Assembly: GCA_963969365.1 (NCBI GenBank)
Contig: OZ017760.1
Coordinates: 868,001 to 932,000 of the forward strand
DNA: 64,000 bases
Source of the DNA: Asterochloris sp. CNOR1
Lineage: Eukaryota; Chlorophyta; Trebouxiophyceae; Trebouxiales; Trebouxiaceae
Direction: 5' to 3'
Shown: in pieces, positions 1-64,000 of the stretch
How the letters are laid out: every line of letters starts with the position of its first letter
How positions within the stretch are numbered: the first letter of the stretch is position 1
Translations under genes and position numbers: made by a program
Notes under the pieces: generated by a model
The model's input: the letters and a program-made list of their open reading frames with translations, nothing else
Databases searched by the model: none
What the model was told of the DNA's origin: nothing

Positions 1-2390
1 CCTGCTGCTTGTGTGCCCAGCCAATGCACCTGATCCTGAGCTGGTGCTGCCGGGCAAACCTTGCTCGGCAGGTACCTCAGGTGCGTACCAACAGTCTTGC
101 TCCCCAACGTATGCTGCTTACCCATGCAATCAGCCACATGCCTGACCCTCCGTCCACGCTGCTGCCAGGGGCACCTGTTCTGGTGTGGTTCCCTGGGGCA
201 TGTCCAAGGAAGTAAAGCAGCTTCAGCACCCATCCTGCTTGCTCACCAGCATGGTCCTGCAGCTGTGTGTCACCATTCGCCAGCAGGCTCTCAGCCCTGG
301 CAGCTACTGCTGGGGCACCCCATCCGGCGGGTCCCAGCAGCTGCATTTCTGACTCACACAACTCAGAACACAAACTGATCCTGCTGACTCAGCCATGCAA
401 CCTCACCCCATGCTGCTGCCAGGCGCACTTGTTGTGTGCCTCCCAGGTGCCACGCTTGACACAAAGGCAGCTCCAGCTTGCTGACTGACATGACCCTGCA
501 GCCACATGCCATCCCTCCACCAGGAGGTCTCATGCCCAGGCAGCTGCCGGGTGAACCCCAGGCGGGGTGTCCCAGAGGTGCCCGAAAGTCGGGTGTGACT
601 TGCTCACCAGCGGTGTCCTGCAGACGGGTGTCGCTCTCCACCTCAGCCCAGGCAGGTGCCATGGGCACCCCAGGCGGCACGTCTCCCAGGTGCACATTGA
701 AAACCATGAGGCGCCCTGAGAGGCCCAGCCACTGGGCGCGGCTGCCCTGCTTCAGGCTCCAGGCAGTGGTGGCGGCCAGGGGTTTGAACTGCCAGCCAGA
801 GATCTCGGCTGTGACAGAGTGGCCTGCAGGCAGCAGTGCAGCAGTCAGCAGGCTTTGAATGCCCCAGCAGTGGCACGGCCAGGGTGGTGAAGCGTCAGCC
901 AGAGGTCTCGGCCACCACACAGGGTGATCGTCATGGCTGCAGTCAGCAGTGTGTGCTGAAGTGGCAGTCAGCGGTGAGAAGTGCTGGCACAAGATCTCTG
1001 CTGCCACAGAGCAGCCTGTGCAACCAGTGCAGCGGCCACTAGGTGCGGCATGCCCAGCAGTGGCTGCAGCCAGGGCAGTGACCCAGCCACTAATCTATGC
1101 TGTCACAGAGTGCAGCTTAGTGGTGCTGCAGCTTCAGGGCTGTGGGCTGCCATCACAACCTTTACGATGGTGGCCTGCACAGGCTGGTCAGCAGAACTGC
1201 GGCCTGCAGCGCAGCTGCCTCTTAACTGGGCCTGGGCATCCCTGCAACTGAAGGGGTCATTGTCCAGGCATTCAGCACAGGACAACTCCGTGCAGATGCA
1301 GCTGGCCCATAACTCTGTGGCCCTGGCCGGGCCCACTTCAGACAGGCATCACTGTCTTCCCTACTTTCCTGACAAAGTGAAGCATGCAAACAGCCATCAG
1401 CCAGACTCGGCTCCTGTGTAAGCCGCTCACAAGATGTGCAAGCAACATGTCTGCGCAGCTTGACTGCTGTGACAGTGCGCACTGCCCATGGACACCTAAG
1501 ACCCGAACACTGCCATGGCCTGCTCAAAACCTGCCAAAGAGCAGGCTGCAGCTGCAGCAAGCTCACCAGCTGTGACGTTGATGAAGCCAATCTGCGCAGG
1601 GGGCATGTGCCAGCCGTCCTGCTGCTGCATGAAGTGGTGGGGCACACGCTGGCTCAGCAGCAGGGACCCATCGGAGCTCCACGGGGATATGTCGGTGTGG
1701 CTGAAGGAGTGCACTTCATCACTGGACTGGCTGAGCATGGCCACCTGCACTGGGCAGGAGCAGTGAGCGATGCCACTTGAACTGGGCATGGGGCTGATTA
1801 TGCAAGCTGCTCTGATGCTGCATGTGCATGAGCAGCTGGGCTGGCCACCATCACTGCGCCTGGCCACCTGCCCAGAGCAGGATGACTGAAACATGTTGGT
1901 GCACCCCATGACAGGCCTGGCTCAGCAGGGCCACTGTGCAGGCTGCTGCGTGTGCACTGCTGGATGCAGGTTGCACCACTAACAGTCTACAGCCTGGCCA
2001 TGGCACAACAGCAATCGTGAACTCCCTGGCACTTGCTGCGTGCTGCCGGCAAGCACAGGCAGCATGAGCCAGGTACGCACAGGACCAGCGCACACATGCT
2101 GGTACCTGCATCTGTGCACTCAGCGATGACGCAACTGTGCTCACAGCCCTGTGCTGCTGAGGACAGATGGAGGGCAGAAGGTAAGCAGCAGCCCACCTGC
2201 ATGGGCATGACCCTGAAGTCTTTCATCAGCTGCTCAGTCAGTGATGCAGCCTCCTGTGGCTGGGAAGCAGCAGCAGCATTGACGACCTGGCCTGTGCCCC
2301 GCTGCACCTGCTGCTGCCTGGCCAGCATCAATAAGTGCATGTCGTTGTGGCACTGCTGCATCCTGTAGGCAGCAATGGCTTTTCGCATTG
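1..2390 (-). CDS. Unrecognised multi-exon gene, 3' part outside window
   Basis: I do not recognise this protein. Three stretches on the minus strand look like real exons, with consistent amino-acid composition and good splice sites. The first, about 2208-2371, begins MQQCHNDMHLLMLARQ and ends before gtgggc. The second, about 1577-1742, contains DGWHMPPAQIGFINVTAG and ends before gtgagc. The third, about 612-817, contains EISGWQFKPLAATTAW and SGRLMVFNVHLGDVPPG and ends before gtgagc. Possible further coding lies near 2480-2640. The protein may be secreted or bind carbohydrate, judging only from the Trp- and Gly-rich beta-like character, which is weak evidence. The 5' end is not resolved and the gene runs off the left edge. 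Its introns hold arrays of copies of the edges of the third exon, listed separately. Confidence 0.5.
239..634 (-). repeat. Duplicated exon donor edge
   Basis: Bases 601-634 cover the last codons and splice donor of the exon at 612-817. They have a similar copy at about 239-275. Both read gctcaccagc, then gtcctgcag, then a gtgt tract, and the copy keeps a usable gtgag donor. Confidence 0.65.
791..1116 (-). repeat. Four-copy intron array of an exon acceptor edge
   Basis: The acceptor edge of the exon at about 612-817 (bases 791-830) is followed upstream in the intron by three diverged copies at 894-930, 987-1021 and 1087-1116. All share a core like agatctcggctgtgacagag, and spacing is about 90-100 bases. 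The alignment was made by eye. Confidence 0.7.
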
Positions 2391-2918
2391 ATGAATTGGT
2401 GTGTAAGCGCATATTGCTAGCTGATGGAGATAGAGCAGTGCATACGCATGCACCGCACCAAATGCCCTGCATTCCCCAGCAGCTTCATGCATTACCTGAC
2501 AGCTGTGCCATGGATGATTGAGACGCAGGGCAGGGCAGGTCCAGCATGCAGCCTTGGGCAGCAGCTGCAACACGGTCCATCTCTGGGTAGTGCTGCTCTG
2601 CCTGCGCAGCATGCTGGCCCACCGCAAATGCTTGCAGCCCTGCTCTGCCTGGCACCCTGCATTGCGCTGCGCGCATCTGTGCGTGGCCCACCCAGCCCGG
2701 GCTGTCAGCTGCCAATCTACAGCAGCTCTGAGTTGCCTACTGTATGCCCTGCGGGCGCCCCACAGAGGCACCCCTAGGTACTGCGGGGGCTCAGAACCTT
2801 TCAGTCTGACACTCTGGGCACCTCTCAGGCTCCCAGCTCAGTCACTAGCGCCGCCTTGCATGGCACCCTCCCATTCCCCACACCCTCAGCTCCTGCTAGA
2901 ACGTATGAAAAGAAGCTG

Positions 2919-15900: not shown

Positions 15901-18900
15901 TGGCACCGCCGGGGCGCAGTCTGACCAGCTCTCGCGCCAAAGCCATGTGGCAATCCTGCTGATCAAGTCTCTGTTTGTCTGTTTGTAGGTCACGCAGATT
16001 CCTGGCATTGCCCTGTACTACTCAGAGACCATCTACGGCCTTCCTCCAGTGCTCATCAAGCAACTGACAACCTTCCCCATGATGCACAAGGTGAGTCATG
16101 CCTATGTATGATATACATATTTATACACAGCCTCCCCATGATGCACAAGGTGTGTCATGCCTCTGTATGTGTGGTGTATATATATGACTGCCATGCCTGC
16201 TGCAGGTTGCACGGTGAGCCATCAGGCGCACCCTGCTCTGCAGCAGTGCATGTATGCCAAATGCGTAGTGTTGGTGCCTCTGCTCATGTGCTGACCCTAG
16301 GCCTGCACTGTGCATGCACAAGCAATCAAATGTGTTCCGCAGTGGTTGCAATGTCTTAAGAAACTAGCAATCGGTGCTGAGGCTGGTCATGAAATCCCAG
16401 AAGCTCGCCCTGCTCGTCGGAGGCAAGTGCAGTCCTGCCCCACCCTGCAGGTCAGCTTGGTGGTGACCAACCGCTTCGTCCCCCTGCCTGAGGTGTACGA
16501 GCATGAGCGCTTCCTGGTGGAGTCCCTGTCCCTGTCAGGAATGTACCACGTCATTGCCAGGTCAGCGAAATGCATGCACAAGCTGCTGTCTGTGCAGTGG
16601 CATGGAGGCTTGCCTGGGTGGCTGCTGCCCCTGCCCTGCTGCTTTGGCGGCCCAAGCCACCGCAGTCATGCCTGCAGTGTCTGGTGGTTGCTGGTCCTGC
16701 AGCAGCATGCAAGGGCCCTTCCTCTTGTAAGGTTGGCGCGGTGCTGCCAGGTGTGCACTGTCAGTGACTCGCACAGCCATGTGCAAACTGCCGTAAGGCA
16801 GGCTCTGTACCAGATTTTGGCCTGTTGAAGGCCCTGTCTCCTCCTGCCCTGAAAGCTGCACTGTCCATGCATGGCCTTTGCTTTGGCTGCCTGTCAGCCC
16901 ACAACCCTGTGCTTTTGCTTGCAGGTATGGCTACACTGAGCGCGTGCAGCAGGATGCCAAATTTGTGCAAGCCGCTGTGGAGCACACCCTGGCCTTGATG
17001 TACCAGCACCTCCACATTGCAGTCAGCCAGTCTGATGATTTGCAAGCAGTTTTTGGGCAGGCACGCCCCTCCATGAGCCTGGTGGCTGCAGCAGGTGAGA
17101 GAGGATGCCCAGTAGAGGAGGTTCTGGTAAAACCTGGGAATTTGCTAGACCATGGCTGCTGCTAGATCATTGCTGGCTGTTCAGTGGCCAAGGAAGGATT
17201 GAGGCTCCACTTGAGCTGCAATGGTCAATCTCAGCAATTCAGAACTCTTGCAGTGCTGATCATTCAGTGCCAGACCAGTCAAACGTGCCACGGCGTTTCT
17301 GCTCAATTGTTGGGGGCATTCAATATGATTACCAAACTTCTGCCACATGCTGCAGGTGCCCAGGAGGGCGTCCCAGCCTTAAATTCTGCCTCAGCTGGCG
17401 CCTTGCAGGCTGCTGCTGCAGACTTGAGGCGTGTCAGTTTTGCTGGTGACTCGGCGGGCCTTTGAAGCTAGCTGCAGCCACCAGTTGCCTGCATGTGACT
17501 TGTCATGCCTAGGGCCCATACTGCTGCCTGTGGTCTGCATGGGATGTGCTGTGTCCCACAGAATGACTGCTGCCTGTGGCCTGCATGTGATCTGCTGTGT
17601 CCCCAAAGCAATGTAGCTGCCTACCTGTAGCTTACCTTTGCACTCACCATCCTGTCTGCCTATTGCTTGCACTGTCCCCTGTCGTGGGCATTTCCACAAC
17701 AACCTTGCGGCCAGCATTCTTCCAATGAGTTCACAATGATGCTGTACCTGCCCTCAGGTGACACTGCGCACACAGGCAGTGCTGTGCAGCAGCAGACTGC
17801 GCCAGAGAACATCAGTGCGCAGACACTGCCCGACAGCCATATCCCAGTATCTCCGTTCTCAGGCGATGCCTCACAGAGTGAGGCCCTGACTGCCCCGCAC
17901 TGCCACTTTTGCGCACACACACGCACACACACACACACACACACTTCTCCACAGCACGCGGCTCCAGCTGCGGCCATGCTGCCTGTGCGCCTCTGCACTG
18001 TCCACTGCAGGGCACTGCCTTTGCTGCCATTACGTGCACCTTCTTCGTTTTTGGGGGCGTGGTGGTGTCATGCCGGTGCCCACCCTCAACCTGCCACCAC
18101 CAAAAGGTTCCTTGTCACGCCCAGTCAGTCTGCAGATGCCCTTGCACTGCAAAGGGTCCTGGGCAGGCCTGTCACCTTCCAAGGCTGCAGCACTTGACTG
18201 TGCTCCTGCAGGTGTGACTGCCCCTCAGGAGGCGGGGCCCTCCAGCTCTGGTCCCCGCCCCACCCTGGCAGAGGCAGCCAGGTCGGGGGGCCACCCCCTG
18301 GGAGGGCTGGGCAGCCTGAGCATGAACTACAGCTCCCTGGAGGCTCGCATCAGCATGGCGCCCAGCAGCAAGGGGGACCCATACCTGTCTGCCCGCCCCA
18401 GCATGAATCTGCGCAGCATGAGCCCTGAGATCAGAAAACAGCTGGGCACGATGGTCAAGAGGATTGTGGCTGACTCGGTGAGTGCACCTGCCTGCAGTTG
18501 CATCATGCCAGAGTACGGCAACGAGGCCCTCTGGGGGGTCCTTTGCTTGCCTCGCCTCACACCCTGGCTGCTATGGCTCATCTGCTGAGGGCGTTTGCCA
18601 ACAGACAGAAGCGGTTGGAGAGCATGGCAATGCTTGGCCCTGAGCCCTGGGCAGCTCGTGCTGCAGATGCGGCTGCATGACTGCTGGAGTGTCATGCCAG
18701 CTTGTGCTCACAGAGTGATGTTGTGTTGCTGCAGACGAACCAGCTGCAGAGCACAGGCACCCCTGCGGCCCGCCGTGCATGGCTGCTGGCCAGGGAAATT
18801 GACCTGCTGCAGACAGAGCTAAGTAGTGCTGAGGCCCCAGTGTTCATCATGGGCAGGGCTCACGTCCGCCTGCGCACAGATAGCAACTGGTGAGGCTGTT

Positions 18901-19458
18901 GACGGGCTTGGCAGCACATCGCACCACTGCCATGGGGAGGACCCACGCCCGACTGTGTACAAGCAGCATCCATGAGGCTGCTGATTGGCTGACAGTTGCA
19001 GCAAGCTTGCCATCAACGGTGTGGGCTGAGGCAGATTGCCCCGGAAGACAGCACAGTACAGTCCCAGTGCACTTCTAGCTGCCCTGCAAAACCCTGAACA
19101 TACTTTCCTGCACACTCGTTTGGCTGCACACTCGTCTGGCTGCAGCTTGGCCTGGCCTGGCAGCAGTGACTTGGCTGTCATCTGGCTGCAGGTTCAGGCG
19201 GTACTTGCTTGAAATGCCGTATCAGATCATGGTCAACAACACGAAGGCAGATGCCTATAGGTGAGTGAGACATCGTTGTTGCTGAGCACAGGTCACACTT
19301 GTACTTCTGAGTAGCCAGCTGAAGCGGCCTGGTGACACACTTTACACCTCTCTTTGGAGCAACAGTTGAGATTGCCAGAAACTTGTGTCTTTTGCTGCAG
19401 GACATTCAACATTCCAGAAAGCAACCTCAGTGAGTTTGGCATTGTTTATGTCGTCTGA
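9951..19458 (+). CDS. KUP: KUP/HAK/KT-family potassium transporter
   Basis: This is a plasma- or vacuolar-membrane K+ uptake transporter, probably K+/H+ coupled as in the family. Exons by eye: 10391-10457, 10661-10895, 11200-11314, 11491-11614, 11828-11882, 12003-12072, 12273-12337, 12480-12552, 12910-13031, 13340-13442, 13763-13852, 13996-14101, 14527-14698, 15021-15247, 15989-16090, 16451-16560, 16925-17094, likely exons near 17358-17447 and 17757-17865, then 18212-18477, 18735-18889, 19192-19260 and 19401-19458. Diagnostic motifs are GVVYGDL joined to GTSPLYVF, and [11 protein letters not shown]; some ten membrane segments follow in family order. The C-terminal cytosolic part has a Ser/Pro-rich insertion around 17.3-18.4 kb, then a conserved tail ending [13 protein letters not shown]. 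Only the N-terminal exon is unsettled: an ATG at 9951 is possible, but the joining splice is not clear. Two introns carry copies of neighbouring exon edges. Confidence 0.93.
15208..15640 (+). repeat. Five-copy intron array seeded from a KUP exon end
   Basis: The end of the exon 15021-15247 and its donor (about 15208-15260) recur as diverged copies near 15311-15353, 15404-15451, 15505-15544 and 15598-15639. The shared core is like accaagcagctggtg, and spacing is about 95-100 bases. All copies lie in the 740-base intron before the exon at 15989. Confidence 0.75.
16071..16169 (+). repeat. Tandem duplication of a KUP exon end plus splice donor
   Basis: Bases 16071-16110 (exon end, donor gtgagt and intron start) are repeated at 16131-16169 with about five differences. 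The copy keeps the exon end and has a gtgtgt donor. The repeat period is 60 bases. Confidence 0.9.
17518..17613 (+). repeat. 48-base tandem duplication in a KUP intron
   Basis: Bases 17518-17565 and 17566-17613 are about 85% alike by eye. Both begin actgctgcctgtgg and contain tgctgtgtccc. It is not obviously derived from an exon edge. Confidence 0.7.
17912..17944. repeat. CA microsatellite in a KUP intron
   Basis: This is a run of (ca)n with two g-for-a or g-for-c interruptions near its start, just after the Ser/Pro-rich exon of the potassium transporter. Confidence 0.95.
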
Positions 19459-27700: not shown

Positions 27701-29495
27701 GACCCTTGAATTGTTGTGCTGTGATGCACGTGCCTGGCTTTTAGGTCTGACAGCAGCCATCCCCTTGCCTGCAGAGCTCGGCAACAGGGGCCAACAGCCC
27801 CCATGCTGCAGCACTGAGCCCCGTCACTGACTCAACCTCCACACAGGGTGAGTGGGGGAAGAGCCTAGCATGATGAGCTCAACAGTAATGTTTGTCATGT
27901 CTTTCATGATGCCAGCCTGTAGAGCATGTCATGGCTGGCAGACTGGGCGAGGGCTGGGGCTGCACCACAGCAAACGCCTGGTGCTTGTGGAGCTCACTGT
28001 GTGTGGGCTGCCACGGTGTGGGCAGGGTGCCAGCAGGGCAAGGGTTGCAAGCTCATGTGCGTGCATCTGTTCTGCAGCACATATTGACTGCCCAGCAGTC
28101 TGAAGCCATGCATCCCAAACAGGCAGTAGTGGGCCTGCCCCCCTGCACGTCAGCTGTAGGGTCAGGCGCTGCTGGCCGGTGCACAGCTCCTTTGAAGGAG
28201 GAGGCACAGCTGCACGAAATTCTGTTGAGCTCTGTTTCATCAATGTGTTCACTCCCGTACAGGTGCAGCAGGCACAGGTGGTGCTGGCCAGTATGCGACT
28301 ATGGCCCAGGAGAAGGCACAGCCCGTCCTGAATGCTGCGGGTCAGTACGCTGCCATCGCTCAGGAGAAGGCGCAGCCCGCCCTGAACGCTGCCGGCCAGT
28401 ACGCAGCCGTGGCTCAGGAGAAGGCCCAGCCCGCCCTGGATGCTGCCAAGGGGTATGCAGTCCAGGCGCAGCAAATGGCCCAGCCCCATGTGGACCAGGC
28501 CATGGACTACGCTGCTGGTGTGGCGCAGCAGGCGCAGCTGAAGACCCAGGAGGTGGTGGGGCAGGTGTGCCACAGGATGCTGGTGTGTGTCAGATAGGGT
28601 ATTTGGGGAGCAGATGCTTGGCTGCGGTGGCACGGCAGGTGTAGAGCGGGGGCCACAGGAGTCTCGGTGTTATGTACACATAGCCTTGCAGCTAGTGTGT
28701 GGTTGGAAGGGTTGCCAGCTGCTGCTGTGCTGTTTTGCTGCATTCACAGCAGCAAGTGTGGTGGAATGCATGCTGGCAAGAGAGCCAGGTCCAGGTTGTT
28801 AACCCCCAGTGGCGCAGATGTATTGAACAGGAAGCCCTCGGCAGATCACTTATCTGCCAGTCTGAGCAAGCGGTTGAGCCAAACTCTGTTTGAGAGTTGG
28901 TGGTAGAGAAGTACGCTGCTCCACAGCTCGTGTGGGCTTCAGCAGTTGCACAGCTGGGTCAACATCTACGGCGTCAGCCTGCCTCCCGTCATCTGACCGC
29001 TGCCATGTGCCCCTGCAGGTGCGCGAGGCAGACTTGGAGGGTCTGGCCGCCTCGCCCACAGTCAGGATTGCTGTCGGCGTGTTCCTGCTGTGGCTGGTGC
29101 TGCCCTTCAGTCTCCCCTGGAAGGCAGTCCTGAGCCTGATGGTGGTCGCTGGGATCGTGGCGGGACTGGCAGTCTACGCACGTGGGTCCTGCTTTTGCTG
29201 CAGCTGCATATCACACAGCTCAGGCAGTATGCAAACCTGATGACTGGTCCACTGCTGCACATCACACAACAAATGTGCATGGATGTGCAGCTGGAGTGTC
29301 TGTGGCATGGTGGCAGCATCAGCAAGGATCTGTAAAGGCGCCCAGGATGCTGCTTGCCAACAGCCTCTGTGCTGCCCTGCAGGGAACCGCTCTGGGAAGC
29401 CGCTCACGCCCGCCCGCAGGGGCAACACCCTGGGCAATGATGTGCCCCCCTCGACCGGCGCAGGCACCTACAACAGCGCTGCTAGGCGTTACTGA
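24761..29495 (+). CDS. Gly/Ala-rich protein with 18-residue amphipathic repeats and hydrophobic hairpin
   Basis: I do not recognise a named family; it is LEA-like or perilipin-like in character. Phases join cleanly: 24761-24773 (ATG, 13 bases), 24954-24982, 25170-25260, 25462-25565, 25710-25837, 26227-26324, about 26854-27069, 27320-27459, 27776-27847, 28263-28564, 29019-29181, 29393-29495. The start reads MSQTGGADYGGSFK. Exons 6-8 each carry a related motif (DNHIAEEAAAAG; HYKSEEPHIAEEAS; HNIPEYESEKPLKP). The exon at 28263 holds four tandem 18-residue units such as AQEKAQPALNAAGQYAAV, ideal for an amphipathic helix. The exon at 29019 encodes one long hydrophobic stretch broken by two prolines (FLLWLVLPFSLPWKAVLS), followed by a short polar tail ending TYNSAARRY. 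I infer a peripheral membrane or lipid-droplet protein. Exons between 26.4 and 26.8 kb remain possible. Confidence 0.75.
28287..28510 (+). repeat. 54-base coding tandem repeats
   Basis: Four units of 54 bases encode the 18-residue AQEKAQP.LNAAGQYA repeat. Units 1-3 are close to identical and unit 4 (AQQMAQPHVDQAMDYAAG) is diverged. Confidence 0.9.
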
Positions 29496-47857: not shown

Positions 47858-50800
47858 ATGGTGGTCCCAGACGGCATGCTGCAGCCAGCCATGCACTCCA
47901 GACGCCTTGCGCATTTGCCTGTCCTGCCTGCCACCGGTGGGGGCATGTCTCAGCTGCTGGGGAAGCCAGTGCACATGGCGAAGCAACCCCGCAGTGCGTT
48001 TGGTGCCGGGCCCAGACGAAGACAGCCAGAGCCATATGGCATTGGACCCCTGGGCAGGGCTTTGCAGGTGCAGCCCAGAATCAGTCGACCATGGCACACT
48101 ACCAGTGTGGCCTTGCAATGCTCATGCTACGTGCGCTGCTGCCCACACCTGTCGCCTGCTCTGGCGAGGCCCCCTTGAGCAAAGCACTCGCCACACAGCC
48201 CAAGAACCTTTCCCTGCAAGGGCAGCCTGATTCGACAAGCTCGCACAGTGCACCACTCGAGCAAAGTAAGCCCCTCAAGCAGTCATTGGCTATGCAGGCA
48301 CAGATTCAGGACCTTTCCAATGTCACAGAGGAGGACAGGGTGGCAGCAGAGTTGCTGATTGGCTTCAGGACTGCGGGCAACAGGTGTGCACATGGCATTG
48401 CGTGGTTGAAGCATCTACCACAGAGGCGCGGAGATCGCATTCGTCAGGCACATGCTCAGGCTGCAGATGACATCACTTTGCTTTCATGCAAAAATCTGTG
48501 TGCCAACATGACATCCTCAGCCTGCATGGAGCTTGGGGAAAAACAGTTCGTCGGCATGCACACCAGGCAGCTGCGGCAGCCTGCAGAGCAAACGCTTCTG
48601 CGCATCAATCTGAGCCCTCTGCTAGCGTCTGCGCATCAGGCAGCTACGGCAGCATGTAGAGGAAATGATCTGCATGCCAATCTCAGCCCCCTGCCAGCGT
48701 CTGCGCATCTGGCAGCCTGCAGAGAAAGCGCTTCTGCGTTGAGACTGGCTCTGCCTCCGGCCTGCGCTCGTCAGCTCCCCTTGACGGAGGCAGCCTGTGT
48801 GCTAGGCCACTGAGCTGCAGCCAGAGTTGGCCTGTCAGAGACCAATCCCTGCACGCAGGCACAGCAGCGCTTCTGCCAGCATCTGTACTCCTAAAAGCCT
48901 GCTTCCCCTGTGGTGCAATGCCAGCCTCTGCTCCAAGGTTGTGACGCTGACACGAGCCTGCTCTTGTGCCTGCAGGGCAGAGAGCCCGCAGCCAGAGAGC
49001 CCCAGTCCCCTGCCCAGCCGCAGCCGCAGCCACCGCTGGAAGGCTGCCAGGCACGCGGCCCATGATCCGCAGGCAGGCCTGCAGCTGCTGCAGGCCCTGG
49101 CCGGCTCTGGGGCATGCACTGCCAGCGACAAGGAGAACACCGGCACCGTGTCCCCACCCCTGCCAGTGCGGCACAGGCCAGGAGCAAAAGGCCTCGGGCC
49201 CCCACCTGTACTGTTGCCGGCTGTGGCTGGCCAGGCGGTCGCGGCTGGCGTCGTGAGCCCCTCAGCGCCGAGGCGCAGCCAGGCAGTGCTGCCCCAGCAA
49301 CAGCAGGGGCGCCCTGCGCTTGGTCTGAAGGCCCAGGGCGCAAGTATGAACAGCTCCGGCGGCGTGCCAGAGGCTGGGCAGCAGCCTGCTGACAGAATGC
49401 AGTGGACACAATTGGAGCAGCAGCAGCCGCAGGGCGCTGTCAGCGGATGGCAGCACCCCCAGCAGGCTGCCTCTGCAGCTCAGCAGGCAGGGACACAGGT
49501 CAGGCAGCCCCTCCTGGAGGCTGGGGTGCGCCTGCTGCCAGGCAGGCACCAGTTCAGCGTGCAGGTGCCTGGCCAGGTGTCAGGCCGACCGTCGGAAGCG
49601 CAGGCCAGTCAGCCGCAGCGGGAGGCTGCCCAGCCAGGGAGCCAGGCGCAGGCTGCTCCAGGCGTGGCCCCCCAGGTGGTGGTGTACAGGGAGCTGGGCG
49701 CGCTGAGCCCTGGCGGGCGCTGCACTGCACAGACGGCCTGGGCCAGCGTGGTGGCGCGCAGCAATCAACGGCGCAGCGTGGACGCAGCCCAAGAGGGGGC
49801 CCGCAGGGGCGGCTTCAGGCATGCTGCGCCTGCAGATCGGGCTGGCTCCCGCAGCGCCGCGCTGCCAGGACTGACCTCTGTGCCTAGGGGAGGGATGCGG
49901 CCTCAGGCGATGCAGCACGCCAAGGATGCGCTACAGGCACAGGAGATACTATCCAGCCATGCCACTGCTGCAGAACAGCAACAGTATCAGCTGCAGAGGC
50001 AAGTACAGGCACCTGCTGACGCAGTGCCAGCAGGACCGGGATTGCTGCCTGTCCCGGCCTCAGCAGCTGCAGGGCAGCAGCCGCAGCAGGGGCCAGTACA
50101 GGCCCCTGCTGGTGCCGCTCCTGTGGGCGCAGCTCTGGCCCGCCCAGCGCAGAGCGGGGCTGCCCGGCCCTCCGAGGCGCCTGCAGAAATGCAGCAGCCT
50201 CGAGAACTGCAACTCCCTCAGCAGACTGGTCAGCTGCCCCTTAAGCCTGTGAGCAGCCTCAGCAGCCTGGTGGAGCTGCACAGGCGGCAGCAGGTGCAGA
50301 CACTGTCTGCAGGGCAGGCACCTGGGAGCCACCCTGCTGCAGCACAGCCAGCCCTGAGCAGTCTTTTGGAGGTGCACAGAGGGTGCGAAGCCATGGCAGG
50401 CAGGCCCCTGCAGGCGCAGCTGCTGCAGCCATGGGCCAGACATCCTCCAGCGGCAGCAGCAGCCAATGAGGCAGCCTGCCGCCAGGGGGCACACCCTCAG
50501 GGAAGGCCTCTGCAGGTAGGTCTGCTGCTTTCACTCTTTGCCCTCAATCTGGAGGGGCTCTTCAGCACTGCTGCTCTCACTGTGCGCTGCGCTGTTTGGC
50601 ACTGGCAGCGCAGCACTCTGCAGGATTTGGCACGCGAGCAGGCTGTCGATGGCCAGGCCTCGGCCTGACCTGTCACTGCTCTTGCAGGGCTCTGCACCTG
50701 TGATGCAGGCAGCTGTCAGCCATCAGCCAGCAGCCAGGCAGGGGGCTGGAGTTGCAGCCATAAGGTGGCGTGGTCCAAGACTCCCAGGCTGCCAGGGGGC

Positions 50801-52583: not shown

Positions 52584-55500
52584 TCATACCAGCCTTGTAT
52601 TGTATGAGGCGCACCGCCCGCACTTGTGGTACACAAAATGGAATGGCACCTCGCTGCGCTGGCCACAGTCATGGCACAGGACATTCTGCAGGCAGGCAAG
52701 GATGCTTCTTGACATTGCCAGTTGTCATGCATGACGCACAGCCCCGAGTGGCCCCATCACGGTGGCCTCCAACACCAGGATGCAATGAGCCCCGCAGAGC
52801 CTGCCAGCGATGCAGTACCCAGAGCCTGACAACACGCATGACTCACGGCTAGGCACACACAGAGCAACGCGCCCAGCCTGCAGACCAGCAGCCCACCTGG
52901 CGGCGTGATGCATACTCTGGCGGCAAGTCATCGATCCTGGCAGTGAGGGAGTCAATCATGCGGAAGTACACACTCATGTCTCCCATGCTCTTGCTGCAGA
53001 CGGGGCAGGTGTAGTTGTACTTGGTGTACTGCCCGAAGCAGTGGCTGTGCATGAAGTGCCCACAGGGCAGCTCCTGCAGGCAGGGCAGGGGGGGTCAAGT
53101 GAGGTCGGTGCGGTGACAGAGAGCAGCGGTTGGGAGGGGGTCCCCCCTGACAGACGTCAGCTGGGATGTGAGTGTGATGCAATAGAAAGCAGACAGCAGC
53201 ACCGACGCTGCACAGGCAGCAGAGCAGCCAGCTGCAGGTGTTGCCATTCGTGACTGCAGGATGCACGTCTGCCCACTGCAACCCTCATTCAACGAGGCTG
53301 CCTGCTCTTCACCAGGTGCTTGCTGCAGAGGCCAGGCATGCACATTTGCCGCTTGCATGTGCTCAAGCCCACAGACTCACGCGATAGGGCTGCCTGCTGT
53401 CAAACAAGTACTCTGTGCAGACGGGGCAGGTAGACACGTCGCGGCACTTGTGCCCCGGGAACTCGGAGAGGTGCATGCACGCGTTGCACTCCATGCAGTG
53501 GCAGGCGTCCATGCCCAGCCCCTGCCCCACGCGGCACAGGTTGCAGAAGGGGCAGTGGTAGATGCTGCGCCCCTCCTCATCATCGTACAGGTGGCAGATG
53601 GAGCAGAAGTAGCGCGCCATGCGGCACTGGCAATTAGCGCAGCTGCCTGCAGGGTGGGGTCACTGGGCCGACCTTCGATATGGCATTGCCTGCTTGCAAG
53701 AGGACCCAAGGCTGCAAAACTAAATGACAGAATGCCTGCAGAAGCAGCACATGTTGCTGGCCAGGTGGCAGATAGAGCAGAAGCAGCACGCCATGCGGCA
53801 CTGGCAGTTGGGGCCTACACGCGCGGGACACAGTGGCTCAGCAGGCGGCCCGTACATGCCAGGAGTGAGATATGGCTCAGTGCCAGACACAGCAGCAGTC
53901 AAGCGCTGTCTTGCGCTGGCAGCTGGCACAGTGCCTGCACACTGGAGGGCATGTCTGATGTTGCTAGCCGCAGCAGGCTCTGGGTTGTTGCCTGCACTCT
54001 TGGAGATGGGCCTGAAAACACACAGCCAACCCAGGCTCAATCAAGTCAGCTGGCTCCTTGCAGTCAAGCCATACCTTTGTCCTAGCCAGGCGTGCCCACC
54101 TGCAGGCGACTGTTGAACTGTGGGCTCCATGCAGGCGGGCCCGTCACACAGCTGCGCTGCTGCTGCAGGTCAGGATGGCAAATGGACCACCACTCTGTCA
54201 CCTTCCCGGGGCTGCTCATGCTGCTGGGGCTGCAACTTCATGTCGGCAACTTGAGCTGTTGTAATCAGCACAGCCAAGCAGATGCGCACCCCGTGGCAGG
54301 GTACAGAGTCAACCCTCGCGCACCTGCTGGAGCCTGCTGGTGTCCGCACTTCATGCAGGCCATGCGGTCGACTGCGTGAGGGTCCAGCAGATGGTCCTCG
54401 GCCTGGTCATGGCAGAGGCGGCACACGTACATGCGATGGCAGCAGGGTGCGCTCAGCTTGCACCTGCATCATTGAGATCGAGGTGCAAGTATCAGGAGCC
54501 CGCTACAGGTATGCCCAGGCAGCAGGGCGTGCTCACGTTGGACCTGCAAATGGGAGCAGTGTATGCATGAGCCACAAAATTCTATGTTCTCACCAGACCA
54601 TGGCTGGCCAACCAGCTTGCAGCAAGGTGCACTCAACACCTTGACCCTGCAGGGAGCAGTGGCCAGCCTGTACAGGCGAAGGGGGGGCCTGATTATCTTT
54701 AGACCCACTTGCGCTCCGTGCACAGGGAACAACCGCAATGCAAGAAGCGGCAACAGATGCTGCGGCGAGATGCAGCAGAGCATGCCCACTAGCTTGTCCC
54801 TGCACATGGGCGCTAGCCATGTGCCGTGACTTGACTTGACAATGCAGTTGACTGGTGGGATGCCCTGCAGTGCTCCTCTCAACAGTCACCGTCCCGCAGG
54901 ATGCGAAAGTAGCTGCTGCAAAGATTTGCCAACCTGCGCTTGTAGTGGGCACATCCCAGAGCTCCCCCAGGGTGGTGGCTCTGGCGCAGATGGCTCAGTC
55001 CAGCCGTGTCCGCAGCCCTGGTGGGACTGGTCTGCAGACGCTTCTGCTGAGCCACAATGTACTTTGAGGCCATGATGTTTTGCATCAGGTAAGCCTTGCG
55101 CTTTGGTTCCAGGTCTGCACAAAGGCAGGGCACAGCAATGCTCAGCAGATGAACCACGATGATGCATTAGGCCGCGCACAATGGCGCACAGTTGGCACGG
55201 CTTGCAGCCCAGAAGCGGCGCATGCCGCTGCTGTTGGTGCAAGGCCTATCGTGGCCAGAGGTGCACTTGACAGGCCAGCACTTGGCAGCTCAGCGCCCAT
55301 GACAGAGCCTGCCTCAAATGAGCAACACAGAGGGTGGCAGAGAAGATATCTCTCAGGCATGGGGTGAGTGAAGAGAGTGCTGTTCTGCAAGGAGGGCGGC
55401 AGAGAGGGTGTCCAGGAATCCTGTTGGCATCAGCATTGGGAGATGCACACCGCAGACCCCACAGTCATGAATTTTCAAGAAGTGTTGCTGCTTCTGCCAG

Positions 55501-58500
55501 GCAAATGCAAAGCCTGTGTGGCAAGGGAATCCTGCAACTTGCCCGCGACTTACCTCGGTCGTTCCACATGCGCCTGACAGCCACCTCCAGCTGCTTCTGA
55601 TTCATCCTGAAGATGTCCTACATGCAGACAGGGCAGCGGCTTGCTGGGCAGGCGACAGGATCAAACCCTCAGCAAGACCTGAACTGGCGCTTCTTTTAGT
55701 GAGCTGGGCTGCAGACGGCCAAAAAGTCCCGATCGTCATCACCAAAGTGATGCTATGCAGCAGATCGCCTGCTCAAAGGATGAGCATACTGTGGCTGAGG
55801 GCTTGAAATTGAGAGAGTCCTGTAACCATGCTTCACACAGCACACGAGAAAGCGGCAGACCTCATTTCCTGGTCCCACTTTGGCTCAAACTGTTGACTGC
55901 CGACAACAGGATGCCACAGCATCATGAGCTGGGAGTCATGCACACCCCCCCGGTTTACCCGAGCATGAGGAGCTGCTGAACCCTTCCTGCCAAAAGTGGG
56001 ACGCCACATCAGGGGCCGGGCAGCAGGCCTCACCTCCCAGCCTGGTCTGAAGACGGGTGAGCTGCTGCGCTCCTGGTCACCTCCAGCATCCTGCCTGGCA
56101 GCAGCCCCTGAGTCTGTCAGGTATGCTGCCACATCATCCAACGCTGCAGGCGTGGCGGCAGGGGACCCACTGGCACCCGACGGCTGCAGGCAGGAAGCAA
56201 AAAGTGTGAAGGAAGGTAACTCCATGGGCACAGGGGGCAGGTCTCATGTCGGCAATTGACTGCAGCGCAGCCAGGACATGGCTGGCAAGTCCTGGTCCAA
56301 GCAAAAGGTTGCCAGCGTAGCACTGTTGTGCTTTTTCTGGGCCTTTTGCGTCAGGCATAGCAATGATAAGGTTGTATATGCAGTGCACTAGTAGCCATGC
56401 TTCTGAGCATTGTGGCTGTCGACCTGAGCACTTCAGGGTGGTCTGGCTGCACAGAAACAAGACTCTGACATACCTGCAGCTGCTCCTGCACCGTGGCAGC
56501 TGCTGAGTCAGGCATCGGCCGCAGAGTGGCGTCTAGCCACTGGTCAAACATGGTGTGCCGGGTGGCGCTGCGCAGGCTGTCCATCATGCCACGCTGCTCA
56601 TCAGGGGTGAACGAGCCTGCAGGGCCAACAGATACAGTCAGGTAGGATGTGGAAGGAGTTACCAGGCACATACTGTAGAGTAAAACAAGCCTTCAGCATC
56701 TGCTGAAGAAGGCAACTGGCAGTGCAGGGTATGCTGCGCTGCAATGGGCAGCTTGCGCAGGCTTGTCACATCGATGCACTGCCTGTTAGTCAGGGTTGAG
56801 CGAGCTTGCAGATTGGCATTGGGGTGAGGTTCTGTCCACAGGGCGTATCTGAGCGTCGTCTGCTGAGTGACCTCTGCCAGCCAGCATGCCCAGCCTGACA
56901 TTCCTCCCCAGCAAAGCAACACTTGAAAGCCTTAGGTTGAGAAGTAACCCAGATAAGGCAAGCATTGGTCAATTCATATACATGGCCTGCTGTTCTGAGC
57001 CTGCCTACAGTTTGCTGGGCCACACAGCTTTCCCTGACTAGACCTGCAGCTCAATGCCAATCCAGTGTAGCATTTCGCTGTACCACTGCCCACAGTGCTC
57101 TGGAGAGAACAATCAGCCCAGACTGCCCAGCCCTGGTACTCACCTTTGAGACGGCGCAGCAGGGCCTGCAACATGTCTGCCCCAGTGCTCTGGAGAATGA
57201 GCAGCTGCAAGATACAGGCTGATGTGGAGGCCTGGCACTCACCGATGACCCAGGGCAGCATGGCCTGCAGGACCTCTGCCCCAGTGCGCCCAATGATGCG
57301 CCCCACCAGCCTCTGCTGCTCATCACAGGTGAAGTGTTCTGCAAACAGCGGCCACAGCTCACGCTCCTCGGCGTTCACGTGCTGCTCCAGGGAGGCACGC
57401 ATCGCTGCAGTCATCTGCTGCAGCTGCTGGGCCTCGGCGCGGGCTGCAGCCACAGCCTGGGCTGCACGAAGCCTCTCAAAGATCTTCAGGCAGGAATTTG
57501 GGGGTTGGGCGTCAGTGCAGATGGTCGTCAATCATCTGCCAGGCTGGGCCGGCAGCTGCTAGGCCTGAGTGCGAGCAGCAGCTGCATCCTCAACGGCATG
57601 CAGGGAGTTGCAGGCAGGGACCAGGAGACATGCGTCAGTGCAGGGGTTGAAAGAGCGGTGACAGGCAGGGTTGGCGCAGCCTTTTGAGGTCTGCAGGCAA
57701 GCTCCTGGAATCGTTATACAATTTGCACACGGGCTGTGACATAGTGCCAACCAATGCAGAACAAGCCGCCTCTTGAGGATCTGCAGGCAGTGGCAGGGAG
57801 CCCTAGTGTCAGTGCGGGGGTGCATGCCCTATCAACCAGTGCCAGGCAGTGAGAATATCAGCCTCTCATTGCCCTGCTGAGCAGACACAGTAGGATTGCC
57901 AGCTGCTGCTGGGAAAGGCAGCCCCGACTGCAACGCTGCGGCATTGTTTTGTTGAGGTTGATGCGGTGATGCCAGCATTTCAAGCACGGCCGCACCGGGC
58001 CTGGAGACCTGCAACCCAGCTCTACGGTCCGCTTGTTGCCAGACCTCCTTTGATCAGCAGGAAAGTGTTAGCAGGGAGGCCCCATGATGGCAGACCTCCT
58101 GACATGGTGGTCCAGCTGACAACTCTGCAGCTGAACCGGCACAACCCTGCAGAGGCAGACTGCCCAATTGATGCACATTTGCAAACAGCTGCGCATCCTA
58201 CCAGTTGCCTGAAGCCAGGGACCAGCACAGAAAGAGATTTCCCCTCAGTCTGATCCAAGCCTTAGTGGCGCAATATCCGATCACCTTGTGCACATCCGCA
58301 AACAGTTGCGCCTCCTGCTGGTGATCTAGTGAGTAGGCATGTGACACGCGATGGAGGGCCTCCTTTGACTCCAGGGCAGGGAACACAATGTCATCCTCTG
58401 CCTGCAGGGGAACCCTGCCCATGTCAGCATCTCAGCAGCTCCAGAAAGAGGCTGGTGCTCTTGTGGGTGCCTGCTCAGCTGACCAATGACGCGCAGTCTT

Positions 58501-61500
58501 CCAAACAAGCATATGGTGCAGCCTCCTGGCCAAGCAGGCTGATGCGCTCTCTGGCACCAACCAAGGGGCAGAGTTGATGGGAGGCATACTACAAGACTTC
58601 TTGCTGGCATTGATGTGCGAGCAGGCCTCGGGACACATACGGGCAGCATGCATGGCAGCTTGACCTGAAGCCACAAGGCATGCCCCGCAACAAAGACTGC
58701 ACACCTCTGAATGAGCCCGATAGATGCCATCGAGGAATCTGAAGCGGCCCTCCAGCTGCTGCAGGGAGTGCTGCCAGTCCCAGCCATCATCATCCTCCAA
58801 GGCTGCTGCAAAGGCGTTCACATCCTGCTCCATGTGGTGCAGGTCCCGCCTCAGGGCCTGTGGGCAGCAAGACTCGGGGGTGACCACAACAGGCAGCAGG
58901 GTGGCCTCTCCTGCAGCCTTGCAGCACTGCCAGGCAGCCTTGCAAGCAGGACAGAAGGACTCTTGCCACCTCGGCCCAGTTACAATGTCAAGTGGCAACT
59001 CCTGCAAGCTGTTGACCATCCAAGCATAGGCCCCAGGCAGGCCGCCTGCTTTGATCATACCAGAGGCCCAGGGTTGAGCTTTGCCCTGCTCACAAGCCAG
59101 CGCTGGAAGTGCTTTGAAGAGGCAACTGGACATTCATGCTATGGTAACAGGCCGCCGCCTGTACTCACCGTAGCCATGGCCCCAGCAATGTTGTCCTGCT
59201 GAATAAGCAGCACTGCTCAGAACAGCTGCTGACCTTGTGGAACTGGAAGATGTGGTCAATGGGGTGGACGCGCTCCTCGGCTCTCCGGGCAGACCTGGGC
59301 TCAGCACTGCCAGGAGGCGAGGCATCGTCGAGTGCAGAGGATGGCCCAATTGCAGGGCTGCCTGGAAGGCCGCTGGCCCTTTCAGAGGCTGCCTGGGTGT
59401 GGCTGAGGACTTCTGTCCGCCGACGCTTGCGCTGAGGCTGCTCTTCATCAGCCATGGCAGCGGCAGCAGCGTCCTTGGAGGCTGCTTCTCCTGGCAGACC
59501 GTGCGCCTTTACCAGGAAGACGTCCGTCTGCAGCAGGGTGGACACTTAGATGGTGTCTGACTGACAACATGCCAAAGCAGAGGGTGGCCAACAACTGTGC
59601 CTAGGCCTGCAGCAGCATGCGCAGCACAGCAGCAGGTGGATGCGATATGCCGCAGCAGTGCGCAGCAGGGCAGTGTGCTGTCTGCATCTGGCTGAGGACT
59701 CCAAGCCAGTACCTGTCTGACTCAGCAGGCTGACTGCTGGGGCGCGACAAGCTGAAGGTGTGCAGTCTGTGTTGACTGTGTGATTTGTCCCTGGTGTTGG
59801 CACAGCAGGGCACAGAGCAGGGCCAGGCTTACCGCAACAGGAGGGGTTCCGGTGGTGCCACTCTTCGTCCAGCGCGTAAGCAGCTGCACTAGAGTGCGGT
59901 CGGCGGCAGGGGCAGCCAGCTGCATGTTGGTAACCAGCTCAGCTGCCTCTTCTGATGTGAGAGACGCTGCAGGCAGACAGGCCAGTCACTGTGTCACACC
60001 ATGCGCTGTCAACTTGGCAGCTACATGATGGTCACCAGAACAGCTGCCTCCTCTGGTGTTGTATCCGCTGCATGCACAACAAGCAGCGTGTCGCAAGGTG
60101 CCTTGTTGTAGACACAGCGCAGGTGTGGGGCTGTGTGCTGCCGCTGTTTGAGCGAGCAGCGAATACACCCAGCAGCACACCAGCAACATTGCTTGAGGCC
60201 ATGCTAAAGAGGAGGGAGCAAGCAGGCGGCAGAGCATGCTGCTGCAGTCGCAATGACCCCAGGGCCATATGATTGAGCCAGCCTCATACCTGCCACCCAG
60301 GGCATTACTCTCTCCAGCAGACGCAGGGGCATCCCCCTCAGCGTGCGCCACACCATGGCCCGCTGCTCCGCCGCACAGAGGTGCTTCTCCAGCAGAGGCA
60401 GCACATCTGCCTCCTCATGAGCCATGTGGCGGCTCATGCTGTGGCATACTGCATCTGCTGTGCTGCACAGCGTGCGCATGAGGCTGGCAGCTTCCTTGGA
60501 ACCGCGCCTGCAAGATTGAGAAGCCAGAATCAGTTTCGTTGAAGTGAGGCACAATCTGACACACGTCTCCACGTTCATGGCCTTGCCGCCGACGCCCTAA
60601 GAGGAGACATTTCTGGAGTTTGATGCTGGAGATGACCTTGCTGACGAGGTGTGCCAGCTCTTGCTTGGGCAACTGCATCCCCAGATGGCTGGGCTCCCAC
60701 ACACTGATGCTGAGCCGGAGCTCATGTGCAGCTGCCAAACAGCTGGAGGACAGCTGCAGAACCTCCCTGCACCACAGCAAAGCCTGATCCTACCTGGTGC
60801 TGGAAGTAACCTCGCTGAGCAGGTGCCCCAGCTTGTCCATCTGCGCAGCCTCGGCCTGGTGCTCATCCTCACAGCCTCGGGTACTCTCCGGGCTGGAGCC
60901 GCCCTCTGCCTCTGCTCCAGCACTCAGCAACTTCCTGCAGACAGAAGTACTTTTGTCCTCCTACTCTCAGCCAGAGTCATTGACGAGCTAAAGCCAGACA
61001 TAAAGCAGGCAGAGACACTGCGTGCTTGGCAAGCAGGCTCTGGCATGGCTGCTGCTGCCCCTGCATTGATGACAGCTCTGCATGCCTGGCATCGGCCCCA
61101 AGAATCATCAGGAACAGGGCTGCTTGCTGAGAGGCAGATGCTGAGCATGTCAGGCGTCCTGACATGGCACTTAATGCATGCATTTCGTTGCATGCTTGAT
61201 TGTGGGAATAGGGTCTTCACTGGCGTGGCAAGCACCGGGGCATGGCGCCACAGCATGTTATTGCCAGGAACAGGCATGGCTGGTATGCATGACTGCACTC
61301 ACTTGACTGCTGGGAACAAGACTTCATCCTCAGAGGCAGCATGGAAGGTGCACACTGCACGCAGGAACCTGTGGCGCTCTACTAGGCCCCGTAGCTGCGA
61401 GGCACTTGTGTCGCGGCTTTGCTGGAGCTTGGACGCCTGCAGTGAGGCAAGCTGTGGCGGTGTCGGGGACACTTTCAACAAGGGGCAGCAGCTTTGACAG

Positions 61501-63774
61501 GCCTGGCAGCAGCAGCTGGAGTATCCAGTCGGCAAGAGCAGCAGCTATGTACTTTCTGGCAGCAGTGCTAAGCGCCAGCTGCAATGCACGGCAAGACCCT
61601 GGGCAGCAGCAGTCCTGATCCTGTCAGCTCAGCCAACAAGCAACACACTCCCAGCGTGTAGCAGGTGTGAGCAGCACAGGCACACCAAGCACAGGAGACA
61701 GACCAGGACGTTCTGAGAGGCCACGCACCTCATTGACAAAGCGTTCCAGCGTGAAACGGATGGCAGCATGAAAGTGGGCAATGCCATGCAGGGGCGGATG
61801 AGTGACCGCCGCAGCAGCCTGCACCGCTGCGCTGCAGATCTGCTCCGCGCACTCTGCGGCAGTCAGCCCCAGCTTGACCTTGCAGCAATCAGGGTGGCTG
61901 CAGGCCCGCTGCTGGATATCGATGATAGGCGGCGCTGGGGCCGACTTCTGAGGGCCCAGCCAGGAGCACAGCAGCTGCAGCAGGAGCTGGTCTGAGACCA
62001 CCTGCTTCACCTGCAGTGCAGAAAGGCAGTGCAGCTCAGCAACATCAGGCAGCCAGGAGCACAGGCTGCAGAAAAAGCTGGTTTGGAGACTCCTGCTTCA
62101 CCTGCAGAACAGTCTGCACATGGCTTAAAGATGTCACTGCAGCATCTGGACTAGCCAACTTTCATATTATTCCCAAGCCAGCAGCGAGGTAGCAACTTGA
62201 TGCTGCCAACCTGCCCGCAGATCGTGCAGCAAGCGCTCAATGAGCTGATGCAATGGAGCTGACGCGTAAGAGGCACCCCAGTGACAGCTTTAGCGCTGCC
62301 ATTGCTGCTGAGCCAGTGGCACCCACAGCAGGACCAAAGCGCGTAAGCCATGGCAGTCGGCTTGCTGTGGGTGCACGCTGCATACATTGGCAGCATGTGC
62401 AGGAAGCAGTCTAGACACTGGGTGATTGTCGTCATGCCTGAGCTAGTAGCACAACAGCAGGACCAAAGCCCTGAGTGCATGGCAGCCTGCTTGAAGGATA
62501 TGTAAGCAAAGTAGAGACACAGCAGCACAGTCTCAATGCAATTACTTTCTCATCAGACCTCAGCAGCAACGCAGCAGGCCCAGATCCCTTCGTCCATAGC
62601 TGTCTGCTTAGCTGCATGAGACTGCAGCCTTTATGAAGCCCATCTCCTAGATTGCATGCGACCCAATGTCATGCTTCTCTCTTCTTACCTGTGCCAGCAA
62701 CTCCTGCTGCTCCTCCTCAGGCACTTGAGGTTTGAGCCAGGCCAGCACAGCCTCCACTGTGGCCAGGGGGATGCAGCACAGGAACTGCGCGACCAGAGTT
62801 GCCTGCAGGCGGGTCAGCAAGCCATCAGCAGGGCTCAACGCAGCGCAGTGAGGAGAAGTAGGCTCAGCCATTTCATGAATGCAGCAGAGACTCAGGGAGC
62901 ACCCAAAAGCTTCTTAATGAGGCTGGTCAGGCAGGTAGCCCTCCACCAAGGCCAACTGTGCAGGGGCCGGGCCATCAGAGTGCCTCCCCCAGCGAGACAA
63001 CCAAGCACACAAGAATCACTCCGACCCACCTGCTCTGCGTGGGTAAAGTGCTGCAGCAGCAGGGGCAGCAGCTGCTCCTCCTCCTTGGCCAGATGCTTGT
63101 GCAGGGTGGTGTGAATTTCCTGGACCTGCATGCCAGGAGCTGGATCATCTGTCATATGCAGGGTGGTGAGAACTTCCTCATGCCACATATAAAATGGCGC
63201 TGCGCCTGGCTTGGGACCACGCCTTCAAAGCAGCCCCCTTTCAAAGCTTTTGATGCGGCTTGTGCTGGGACGTGAGCGGCTTCAAACGCCGTTGGCACTG
63301 CCCCTGGATGGTGCTGTGTGAAGATGCCTGCATTGGTTTCTGCTGTAGGGGCACCCTGCTGTTTCAGAGTGTGCGTCTACTCCCCAAAGCATGGCAGCAA
63401 TGAGCTCCTGTCCAATCAGCCCAAATGAGCGGCAGGCATGCTGGTCCATTCTGCTTTGTCCTGTCTGCCCAGGCAGGCACACACTGCAGACCAGAGCCTG
63501 CAGGGGCGCACCTCATTGCTTGCTTTGCTGAATATCGGCAATTCTGGTGAGGACAGACAACAGCTGCTGGCGCATGTGCCCGTCCATCTGCCCCAGGCAG
63601 GCGCACCTTGCAGACCAGCGCCCGCAGGGTGACCCCCCGCTGTTTGCCCTGCTGCACCAGAGCGTCCCCGATGAGGGCAGACAGCTGGTCAAACAGCCTC
63701 TCTTCATCCTCATGCTCTACTGTGTAGGCCAGCGTCACATTCTTGACCTTGACGTCCAAGGCTGGGTAGACTAC
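52584..63774 (-). CDS. BTS: BRUTUS-like hemerythrin/CHY-RING E3 ubiquitin ligase (5' end outside window)
   Basis: This is an iron-responsive E3 ligase of the BTS/BTSL family; hemerythrin domains bind a di-iron centre and the RING recruits E2. Exons: 63607-63774, 63030-63125, 62689-62802, 61729-62010, 61303-61436, 60794-60934, 60290-60507, 59833-59966, 59234-59527, 58705-58857, 58285-58401, 57243-57483, 56474-56616, 56034-56183, 55554-55617, 54934-55114, 54324-54463, 53381-53646, 52897-53073, 52584-52685. About 1,100 residues are visible (BTS has about 1,250). Hemerythrin 1: [27 protein letters not shown]. Hemerythrin 2: [50 protein letters not shown]. Hemerythrin 3: [44 protein letters not shown]. 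Then [19 protein letters not shown] ([23 protein letters not shown]), CTCHY ([14 protein letters not shown]), RING ([32 protein letters not shown]) and zinc ribbon ([19 protein letters not shown]). All zinc ligands I checked are present. Confidence 0.95.
53588..53818 (-). repeat. Decoy copy of the BRUTUS-like CTCHY exon start
   Basis: Bases 53762-53818 repeat 53588-53646 (acceptor side of the exon 53381-53646) with about four differences in the best 48 bases. The copy has its own tag acceptor, encodes [19 protein letters not shown] on the minus strand and soon reaches a stop at about 53721. Confidence 0.9.
54430..54650 (-). repeat. Three copies of the CHY exon acceptor edge
   Basis: The real edge 54431-54470 (minus strand cag then tgcaagctgagcgcaccctg) has copies at about 54508-54547 and 54605-54650, each after a cag and each still carrying a Cys-Cys pair. 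Confidence 0.7.
57135..57795 (-). repeat. Copies of both edges of a BRUTUS-like hemerythrin exon
   Basis: For the exon 57243-57483, the donor edge 57234-57289 is copied at 57135-57190 with donor gtgagtacc intact. The acceptor edge near 57466-57490 has weaker copies near 57678-57705 and 57766-57795. Confidence 0.75.
58172..58321 (-). repeat. Copy of a BRUTUS-like exon donor edge
   Basis: Bases 58172-58204 resemble 58289-58321 (core gcaaacag.tgcgc.tcct), 117 bases apart, downstream of the exon 58285-58401. Confidence 0.75.
61958..62107 (-). repeat. Copy of a BRUTUS-like exon acceptor edge
   Basis: Bases 62051-62107 repeat 61958-62016, including agccaggagcacag, gagac and the acceptor tract cctgcttcacctgcag, 92 bases apart. 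This is one of the clearest cases. Confidence 0.9.
62300..62625 (-). repeat. About 125-base tandem repeat in a BRUTUS-like intron
   Basis: Units near 62308-62375 and 62435-62495 share ctgagc.agt.gcac..cagcaggaccaaagc and ggcttg or gcttga; a weaker third unit lies near 62555-62612. Confidence 0.65.
63100..63185 (-). repeat. Copy of a BRUTUS-like exon acceptor edge (58-base offset)
   Basis: Bases 63100-63135 (acceptor side of exon 63030-63125) are echoed at 63158-63185: tgcagggtggtg, a few bases, then cttcctcatgcca. Confidence 0.65.
63463..63631 (-). repeat. Copy of a BRUTUS-like exon donor edge (125-base offset)
   Basis: Bases 63588-63631 (donor side of exon 63607-63774) resemble 63463-63507: ctgccc.aggcaggc.cac, then tgcagaccag.gcc.gcaggg. 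Confidence 0.75.
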
Positions 63775-64000
63775 CTGCAGAGGCGGTGACGTCACCGCTG
63801 AATGTTGAGTGCTGGGAGCGGCCCATGATCCACACTGTGCACGTAGTAACCTGCCACAAATGCATCTGCGTTTGCTTGGTGGTGCAGTAGATGAAGCACA
63901 GGAGTGACTCTTTGCCAAAGTCTGGCAAAACATGGTGAATGGCCTATTGTCCTACATGCATCAGCACCGGTTGGCATGAACGGAATGAACGCCGCGCTGA

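Follow-up and report, generated by a model that had tools for sequence, protein, structure and literature searches.

The window analysed here, a 64,000-base stretch (868001-932000 of its contig) of an Asterochloris genome of 56,383,464 bases in 21 contigs, comes from a trebouxiophyte lichen alga and carries several intron-rich genes. Among its proteins Pfam identifies a KUP transporter, with relatives in Trebouxia and other trebouxiophytes, and a BRUTUS-like protein with hemerythrin, CHY, RING and zinc-ribbon domains. A DUF1749 alpha/beta-hydrolase-like protein is encoded at 29858-31922 (also Pfam), a fourth window protein had no Pfam match, and three long open reading frames of the window scanned against Pfam gave no family. 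An earlier reading of the letters alone (hereafter the sequence-only reading) had named its genes without coordinates, and we matched genes to those names by position. The modelled BRUTUS-like protein aligns over its full length, at 89% identity, to a protein labelled jgi/Astpho2, a label that we take to denote Asterochloris. A few residues differ within otherwise identical exons, so the window probably derives from a different strain or a near relative. The published genome of Asterochloris glomerata is described as 56 Mb long; its genes average 9 introns, and repeats make up about 5% of the DNA (PMC6652019).

Gene models are our own and come from a gene finder self-trained on 264 kb including the window and 80 kb from another contig; the resulting 344-kb sample is thus the 64-kb window plus 280 kb more. 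After convergence both splice motifs were sharp (donor CAG|GTGAG, acceptor CTGCAG|G). Depending on the setting, 643-840 introns were modelled, with 547 common to all five settings and 796 in the main one; the median intron length was about 218 bases. Compared with the Asterochloris protein, 17 of the 27 predicted exons of the BRUTUS-like gene match at 95-100% and 3 match partly, while the remaining 7, which are short (6-63 bases) and without a match, are false exons. Errors of this kind are therefore carried into all model-based counts given below. For this gene, introns were set independently of the gene finder by aligning the Asterochloris protein to the DNA in spliced form (an alignment also our own), and 20 of its 22 introns were used, two doubtful ones of less than 60 bases being dropped.

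In the BRUTUS-like gene, on the minus strand, 11 of 40 exon edges have a copy in the adjoining intron, against 0.25 expected; the sequence-only reading had claimed at least seven. On the donor side these are 63609-63654 with its copy at 63485-63530 (34/46 identities), 61313-61339 with 61111-61137 (21/27, score 15), 60795-60833 with 60621-60659 (30/39), 58289-58316 with 58172-58199 (24/28), 57228-57287 with 57129-57188 (offset 99) and 53388-53437 with 53296-53343 (35/50). On the acceptor side they are 63100-63121 with 63157-63178 (20/22), 61957-62021 with 62050-62112 (CTGCAG kept in both), 59917-59975 with 60018-60076, 57424-57471 with 57556-57603 (33/48) and 56569-56616 with 56754-56805 (40/52). 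An exon segment near acceptor 53646, at 53588-53640, also recurs at 53762-53814 (89% identity, offset 174); this pair belongs to the edges counted for the window by gene-finder models and lies outside the 11 of 40. At the edge 57228-57287, GTGAGT is present in both copies and the frame is open between them. The Asterochloris protein model places the donor at 57242, an intact second donor follows 99 bases on at 57143, and the gene finder chose the latter. The two form a candidate alternative 5' splice site that would add 33 residues.

Copies of exon edges are found in other genes of the window as well. In the left-edge gene (minus strand), the acceptor edge 1731-1766 of intron 1745-2196 has a copy at 1854-1889, and an array surrounds acceptor 823 (763..1112, offsets 104, 192 and 294). 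The KUP gene (plus strand) presents the donor edge 16074-16110, comprising the exon end and GTGAGT, with a copy at 16133-16169 only 59 bases away that reads GTGTGT at the donor position; it also holds a three-copy array (15193-15358, 15385-15547, 15510-15643) spanning two exon ends and intron 15464-15988. A further intron of the KUP region (18890..19191, plus strand) has a donor-edge copy at offset 83. Also on the plus strand, the intron at 27848..28262 has an acceptor-edge copy at offset 112 and precedes an exon with in-frame 54-base repeats. These coding repeats, in tandem at 28261-28538, encode AGQYAAIAQEKAQPALNA-like units that presumably resemble desiccation-related LEA proteins. In the large minus-strand gene that we take as the PHD gene, intron 41278-41591 has a marginal acceptor-edge copy (score 15). 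The plus-strand gene taken as the Gln/Ala-rich one shows a 73-base tandem array before acceptor 48715 (48557..48738), an edge copy (48575-48602 / 48711-48738) and, in intron 50372..50515 at offset 86, a marginal copy on the donor side with a score of 15.

Between 2197 and 15463 no edge of the window was counted, which places the GT31 edges outside the counted set. With the first gene model, this interval showed edge-like pairs that were left uncounted: 6562-6598 / 6734-6770 at donor 6735, and a three-copy array on the minus strand (6865-6953 / 6972-7057 / 7076-7142) around acceptor 6938, with a CTGCAG acceptor-like site in 3 of 3 copies. The gene-by-gene attribution of the sequence-only reading is less certain: the gene taken as PHD has a single, marginal edge, and neither of the GT31 edges belongs to the 18 counted in the window. 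The arrays that it described do exist (15193-15643, 6865-7142 and 763-1112), with steps of roughly 90-190 bases where about 90-130 had been proposed.

Exon edges were compared with their adjacent introns and with length-matched introns of other genes (Smith-Waterman score of at least 15, 20 null rounds). The comparison covered 578 of the 796 introns, namely those of 90-800 bases whose flanking exons have at least 25 bases. A copy in the own intron was found for 44 of the 578 donor-side edges (null mean 2.2, maximum 4) and for 40 of the 578 acceptor-side edges (null mean 2.4, maximum 6), so that own-intron matches are about 17-20 times commoner than foreign-intron ones. Reverse complements gave 2 donor-side and 1 acceptor-side matches. 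The result is similar for the 462 tested introns common to all gene-model settings (37 donor-side and 33 acceptor-side matches), and the window alone contributes 18 of 224 edges from 112 introns. Offsets across the 84 matches range from 45 to 337 bases and identities from 95%, in the KUP donor pair, down to about 64%.

These figures agree with what had been read from the letters: exon-edge segments recur in the adjoining introns, on the donor as well as the acceptor side, at distances close to the 58-361 bases claimed; for identity the claim was about 92% to barely traceable. The permutation proposed as a refutation, that matches to the adjacent edge are no commoner than others, was run and does not refute the claim, adjacent-intron matches lying far above those with foreign introns. 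Chance or composition was rejected as a source of the matches, strong ones being nearly absent from foreign introns, from reverse complements and among inverted repeats.

Similarity of this kind is not confined to exon edges. Self-comparison of the window yielded 40 direct pairs less than 500 bases apart against 21 inverted ones (self-overlapping palindromes left in). Across the 344 kb, at scores of at least 22 and offsets of 30-400 bases and with overlapping palindromes removed, there were 121 direct pairs and 3 inverted; at 60-300 bases apart, the enrichment is strong for direct repeats and absent for inverted ones. Matches have a median length of 61 bases between exon and noncoding sequence and of 88 bases between intron and intron. 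When each intron with 100 bases on either side was compared with itself (score 18), a local duplication was detectable in 162 of 787 introns, against a null of 9.2. The share rises with intron length, from 11-18% below 300 bases to 30% at 300-450 and 41% at 450-800, where the null share is 3.5%. Local duplication within introns is therefore wider than the exon edges, and the exon-edge copies are part of it. The proposal that introns grow by repeated duplications of different ages is borne out by these counts. Tandem Repeats Finder, with 12 rows in the window, missed most of the diverged pairs. We also observed that young pairs are scarce: of 164 pairs, 7 have 90% identity or more and 84 fall at 70-80%, which would suit either a fast loss of new duplications or the dominance of an older burst.

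Introners, which are known mainly from fast-evolving lineages, green algae among them (PMC9860276), or other mobile elements could in principle have supplied the intron sequence. The similarity is local, however: at scores of at least 26 there are 78 direct pairs at offsets of 30-400 bases and 4 beyond 5 kb. Accordingly, the 344-kb sample holds no dispersed or mobile repeat family and no long-range family of near-identical introns across genes, which makes a mobile source extremely improbable, within the 344 kb covered.

A different possibility is that tandem duplication of AGGT-containing exon segments created the introns themselves, in which case donor and acceptor surroundings would be copies of each other. 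Such gain is accepted elsewhere (reviewed in PMC3443670) and local duplications are plentiful in our sample. We searched for the corresponding register in 574 of the 796 introns (those of at least 70 bases with flanking exons of at least 30), with a power of about 1 down to 70% identity and 0.96 at 65%, estimated from 300 ungapped implants per level. None of the 574 introns had in-register copies at 24 or more identities of 46 (null 0.14), none reached an in-register Smith-Waterman score of 17, and 6 reached 20 or more identities, against a null of 5.1. The mean in-register identity is slightly above that of shuffled pairs (12.07 vs 11.76 of 46, raw means), a small point in favour of this origin. 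On the other side, the offset of the copy equals the intron length (within 3 bases) in only 1 of the 84 edge matches. Offsets amount to 0.11 to 1.01 of the intron length, and the copies therefore sit within introns and lengthen them. Tandem-duplication gain is ruled out above about 65% identity by the register test, and overall we regard it as very improbable. The bearing on the origin of new introns suggested by the sequence-only reading is not supported, with 0 of 574 introns in the tandem-duplication register.

The next question is whether the exon edge is preferred. Introns being short, random placement alone already gives many junction-crossing pairs. Even so, under three gene-model settings 49-51 boundary-intron pairs of score 22 or more were observed where 25.8-32.0 were expected, a count that none of the 500 random shifts run per setting attained, while intron-intron pairs fell to 17-19 where 27-31 were expected. 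At scores of at least 26 the boundary excess is smaller (31 vs 22.7 expected, P=0.029). Exon edges are thus hit about 1.4 to 2 times more often than if the same duplications were placed at random. The excess resides in diverged pairs (24 vs 17.6 at 75-80% identity, 41 vs 33.5 below 75%) and in partial pairs, those whose match covers only part of the offset (61 vs 45.0, P=0.005). Near-full-length pairs occur at the random rate (12 vs 13.3 expected), and pairs at least 80% identical show a weak excess (20 vs 16.8, P=0.185).

An exon-edge-directed process, such as transcription- or splicing-coupled break repair that copies junction segments into the intron, would readily give the boundary excess, and it gains from the concentration of partial pairs at exons: 61 partial pairs are exon-noncoding and 13 noncoding-noncoding, against 12 and 15 full pairs (Fisher P=0.0003). 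It should, however, give its best signal in near-full-length and most similar pairs, precisely those with no preference or a weak one, and we consider it unlikely. Unequal decay offers another route to the same excess. Exon and copy differ more often at codon position 3 (0.233) than at the other two (0.194 and 0.188, P=0.007), which fits coding constraint on one copy. Within the matches, donor pairs have no clear exon-side advantage in identity (exon side 0.778, intron side 0.755), and in acceptor pairs the values are 0.750 and 0.800. In simulations of decay, the ratio of detected exon-edge to intron-intron pairs grows from 1.27 for young copies to 2.2 at K 0.30-0.45 and 8.6 at K 0.45-0.60. 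The observed ratio is 63:17 (3.7), above the 1.74 of a model with uniform ages, which counts against this account, and many copies would have to be old. Slower decay of the exonic copies would account for the edge excess in diverged and partial pairs, and no special role of the exon edge is needed for the interpretation.

The splice signals within the copies were also inspected, as the copies might be maintained functional elements, namely decoy or alternative splice sites or alternative exons. Among junction-spanning acceptor copies, AG is kept in 18 of 25, and in 14 the score falls short of the real site by no more than 3 units; this, together with the intact, in-frame second donor at 57143, speaks for function. 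Against it, junction-spanning donor copies keep GT or GC in only 9 of 19, and 3 are that close in score to their real donor. Moreover, the BRUTUS-like acceptor copy at 62050-62101 aligns to its exon with gaps (54 vs 52 bases), which by inspection puts the copy out of frame. Maintained function is, on balance, quite improbable. By counts only in the 344 kb, loss of the dinucleotide seems commoner in copied donors than in copied acceptors. A scheme in which edges are preferred sources for repair copying over 60-200 bases, with copied donors disarmed and copied acceptors persisting as spare 3' sites, is one we consider unlikely.

Taken globally, the best explanation, to which we assign a probability of roughly 0.7, combines short local duplication, a tolerated copy in the intron and constraint on the copy in the exon. 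The genome frequently duplicates tens of bases locally, most copies lying 60-200 bases from the original. Errors in mending double-strand breaks are the probable cause, either as small tandem duplications or as short patches copied off a nearby template. A random event would often straddle a splice junction because introns are short, and it would be tolerated, presumably as neutral, where the original exon-side junction stays in use, the extra copy remaining in the growing intron. Coding constraint would hold the exonic copy while the intronic one decays, so exon-edge pairs would stay visible longest and look special.

Tandem duplication followed by decay alone does not reproduce the share of partial copies. 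With decay including indels, pairs shorter than 0.6 of their offset make up 8-17% of the simulated boundary pairs and 4-13% of the intron pairs, whereas 93 of the 156 observed pairs of score 20 or more are that short and 41 of 156 reach at least 0.8. We compared the intron beyond the junction with the flank of the copy and found similarity in 14 of 73 cases at scores of 9 or more (null 2.4) and in 9 of 73 at 10 or more (null 1.2). The exon-interior side of the match gave 8 of 79 at 10 or more (null 0.8). Flank similarity is thus alike on both sides and singles out neither the junction nor an end of the duplicated unit. Spacers of 22 bases occur in the two partial pairs with the highest similarity and may, by inspection, be ends of tandem units altered by indels or microsatellites. 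Short templated copying in break repair probably contributes alongside tandem duplication.

In about 1 intron in 5 a local duplication can still be made out, and constraint on the exonic copy may preserve the traces of old events. The 56-Mb Asterochloris genome would be a tractable system for measuring how much local duplication adds to intron length and for following the fate of duplicated splice sites. Gene finders are warned that copied edges resemble micro-exons and second splice sites. To our knowledge, intron lengthening is less documented than intron origin; intron gain by internal gene duplication was reportedly described by Gao and Lynch in 2009. Our literature search, with subscription journals mostly outside it, did not turn up exon-edge copies described for Trebouxiophyceae.

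The duplications themselves are of a known kind, that of doublets and repair-mediated duplications, clearly seen in this alga. Pace et al. 2009 (PMC2671141) describe short linked duplications in vertebrates, made by capture of nearby DNA and attributed to synthesis-dependent strand annealing; as here, the copies are short and closely linked, and exons and intron splice sites are explicitly included. Their donor-acceptor distance averages 1.2 kb, with a peak that the authors themselves regard as a possible artefact of method, compared with mostly 60-200 bases in the alga, and unlike in those vertebrates the copies of this green alga are mostly diverged. Doublets (Thomas et al. 2004, as cited in PMC2671141) are likewise short, local and abundant, and imperfect break repair is a possible source, but they are mammalian and their copies are identical or nearly so. 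In mouse and human cells, break repair has been shown to yield small tandem duplications (PMC8355091), and local direct duplication is the commonest short insertion there, as reported in that source, which also cites Vaughn and Bennetzen 2014 for small tandem duplications in rice. Those duplications are head-to-tail and short (less than 100 bases), whereas most scored pairs of the alga are shorter than 0.6 of their offset. With intron gain by tandem or internal duplication, as reviewed in PMC3443670, the alga shares tandem duplication at AG/GT junctions; unlike in intron gain, its duplications lengthen introns and the signature of gain is absent from the 574 introns examined. What we describe looks like a known copying error that lengthens introns, and no new intron-making route.
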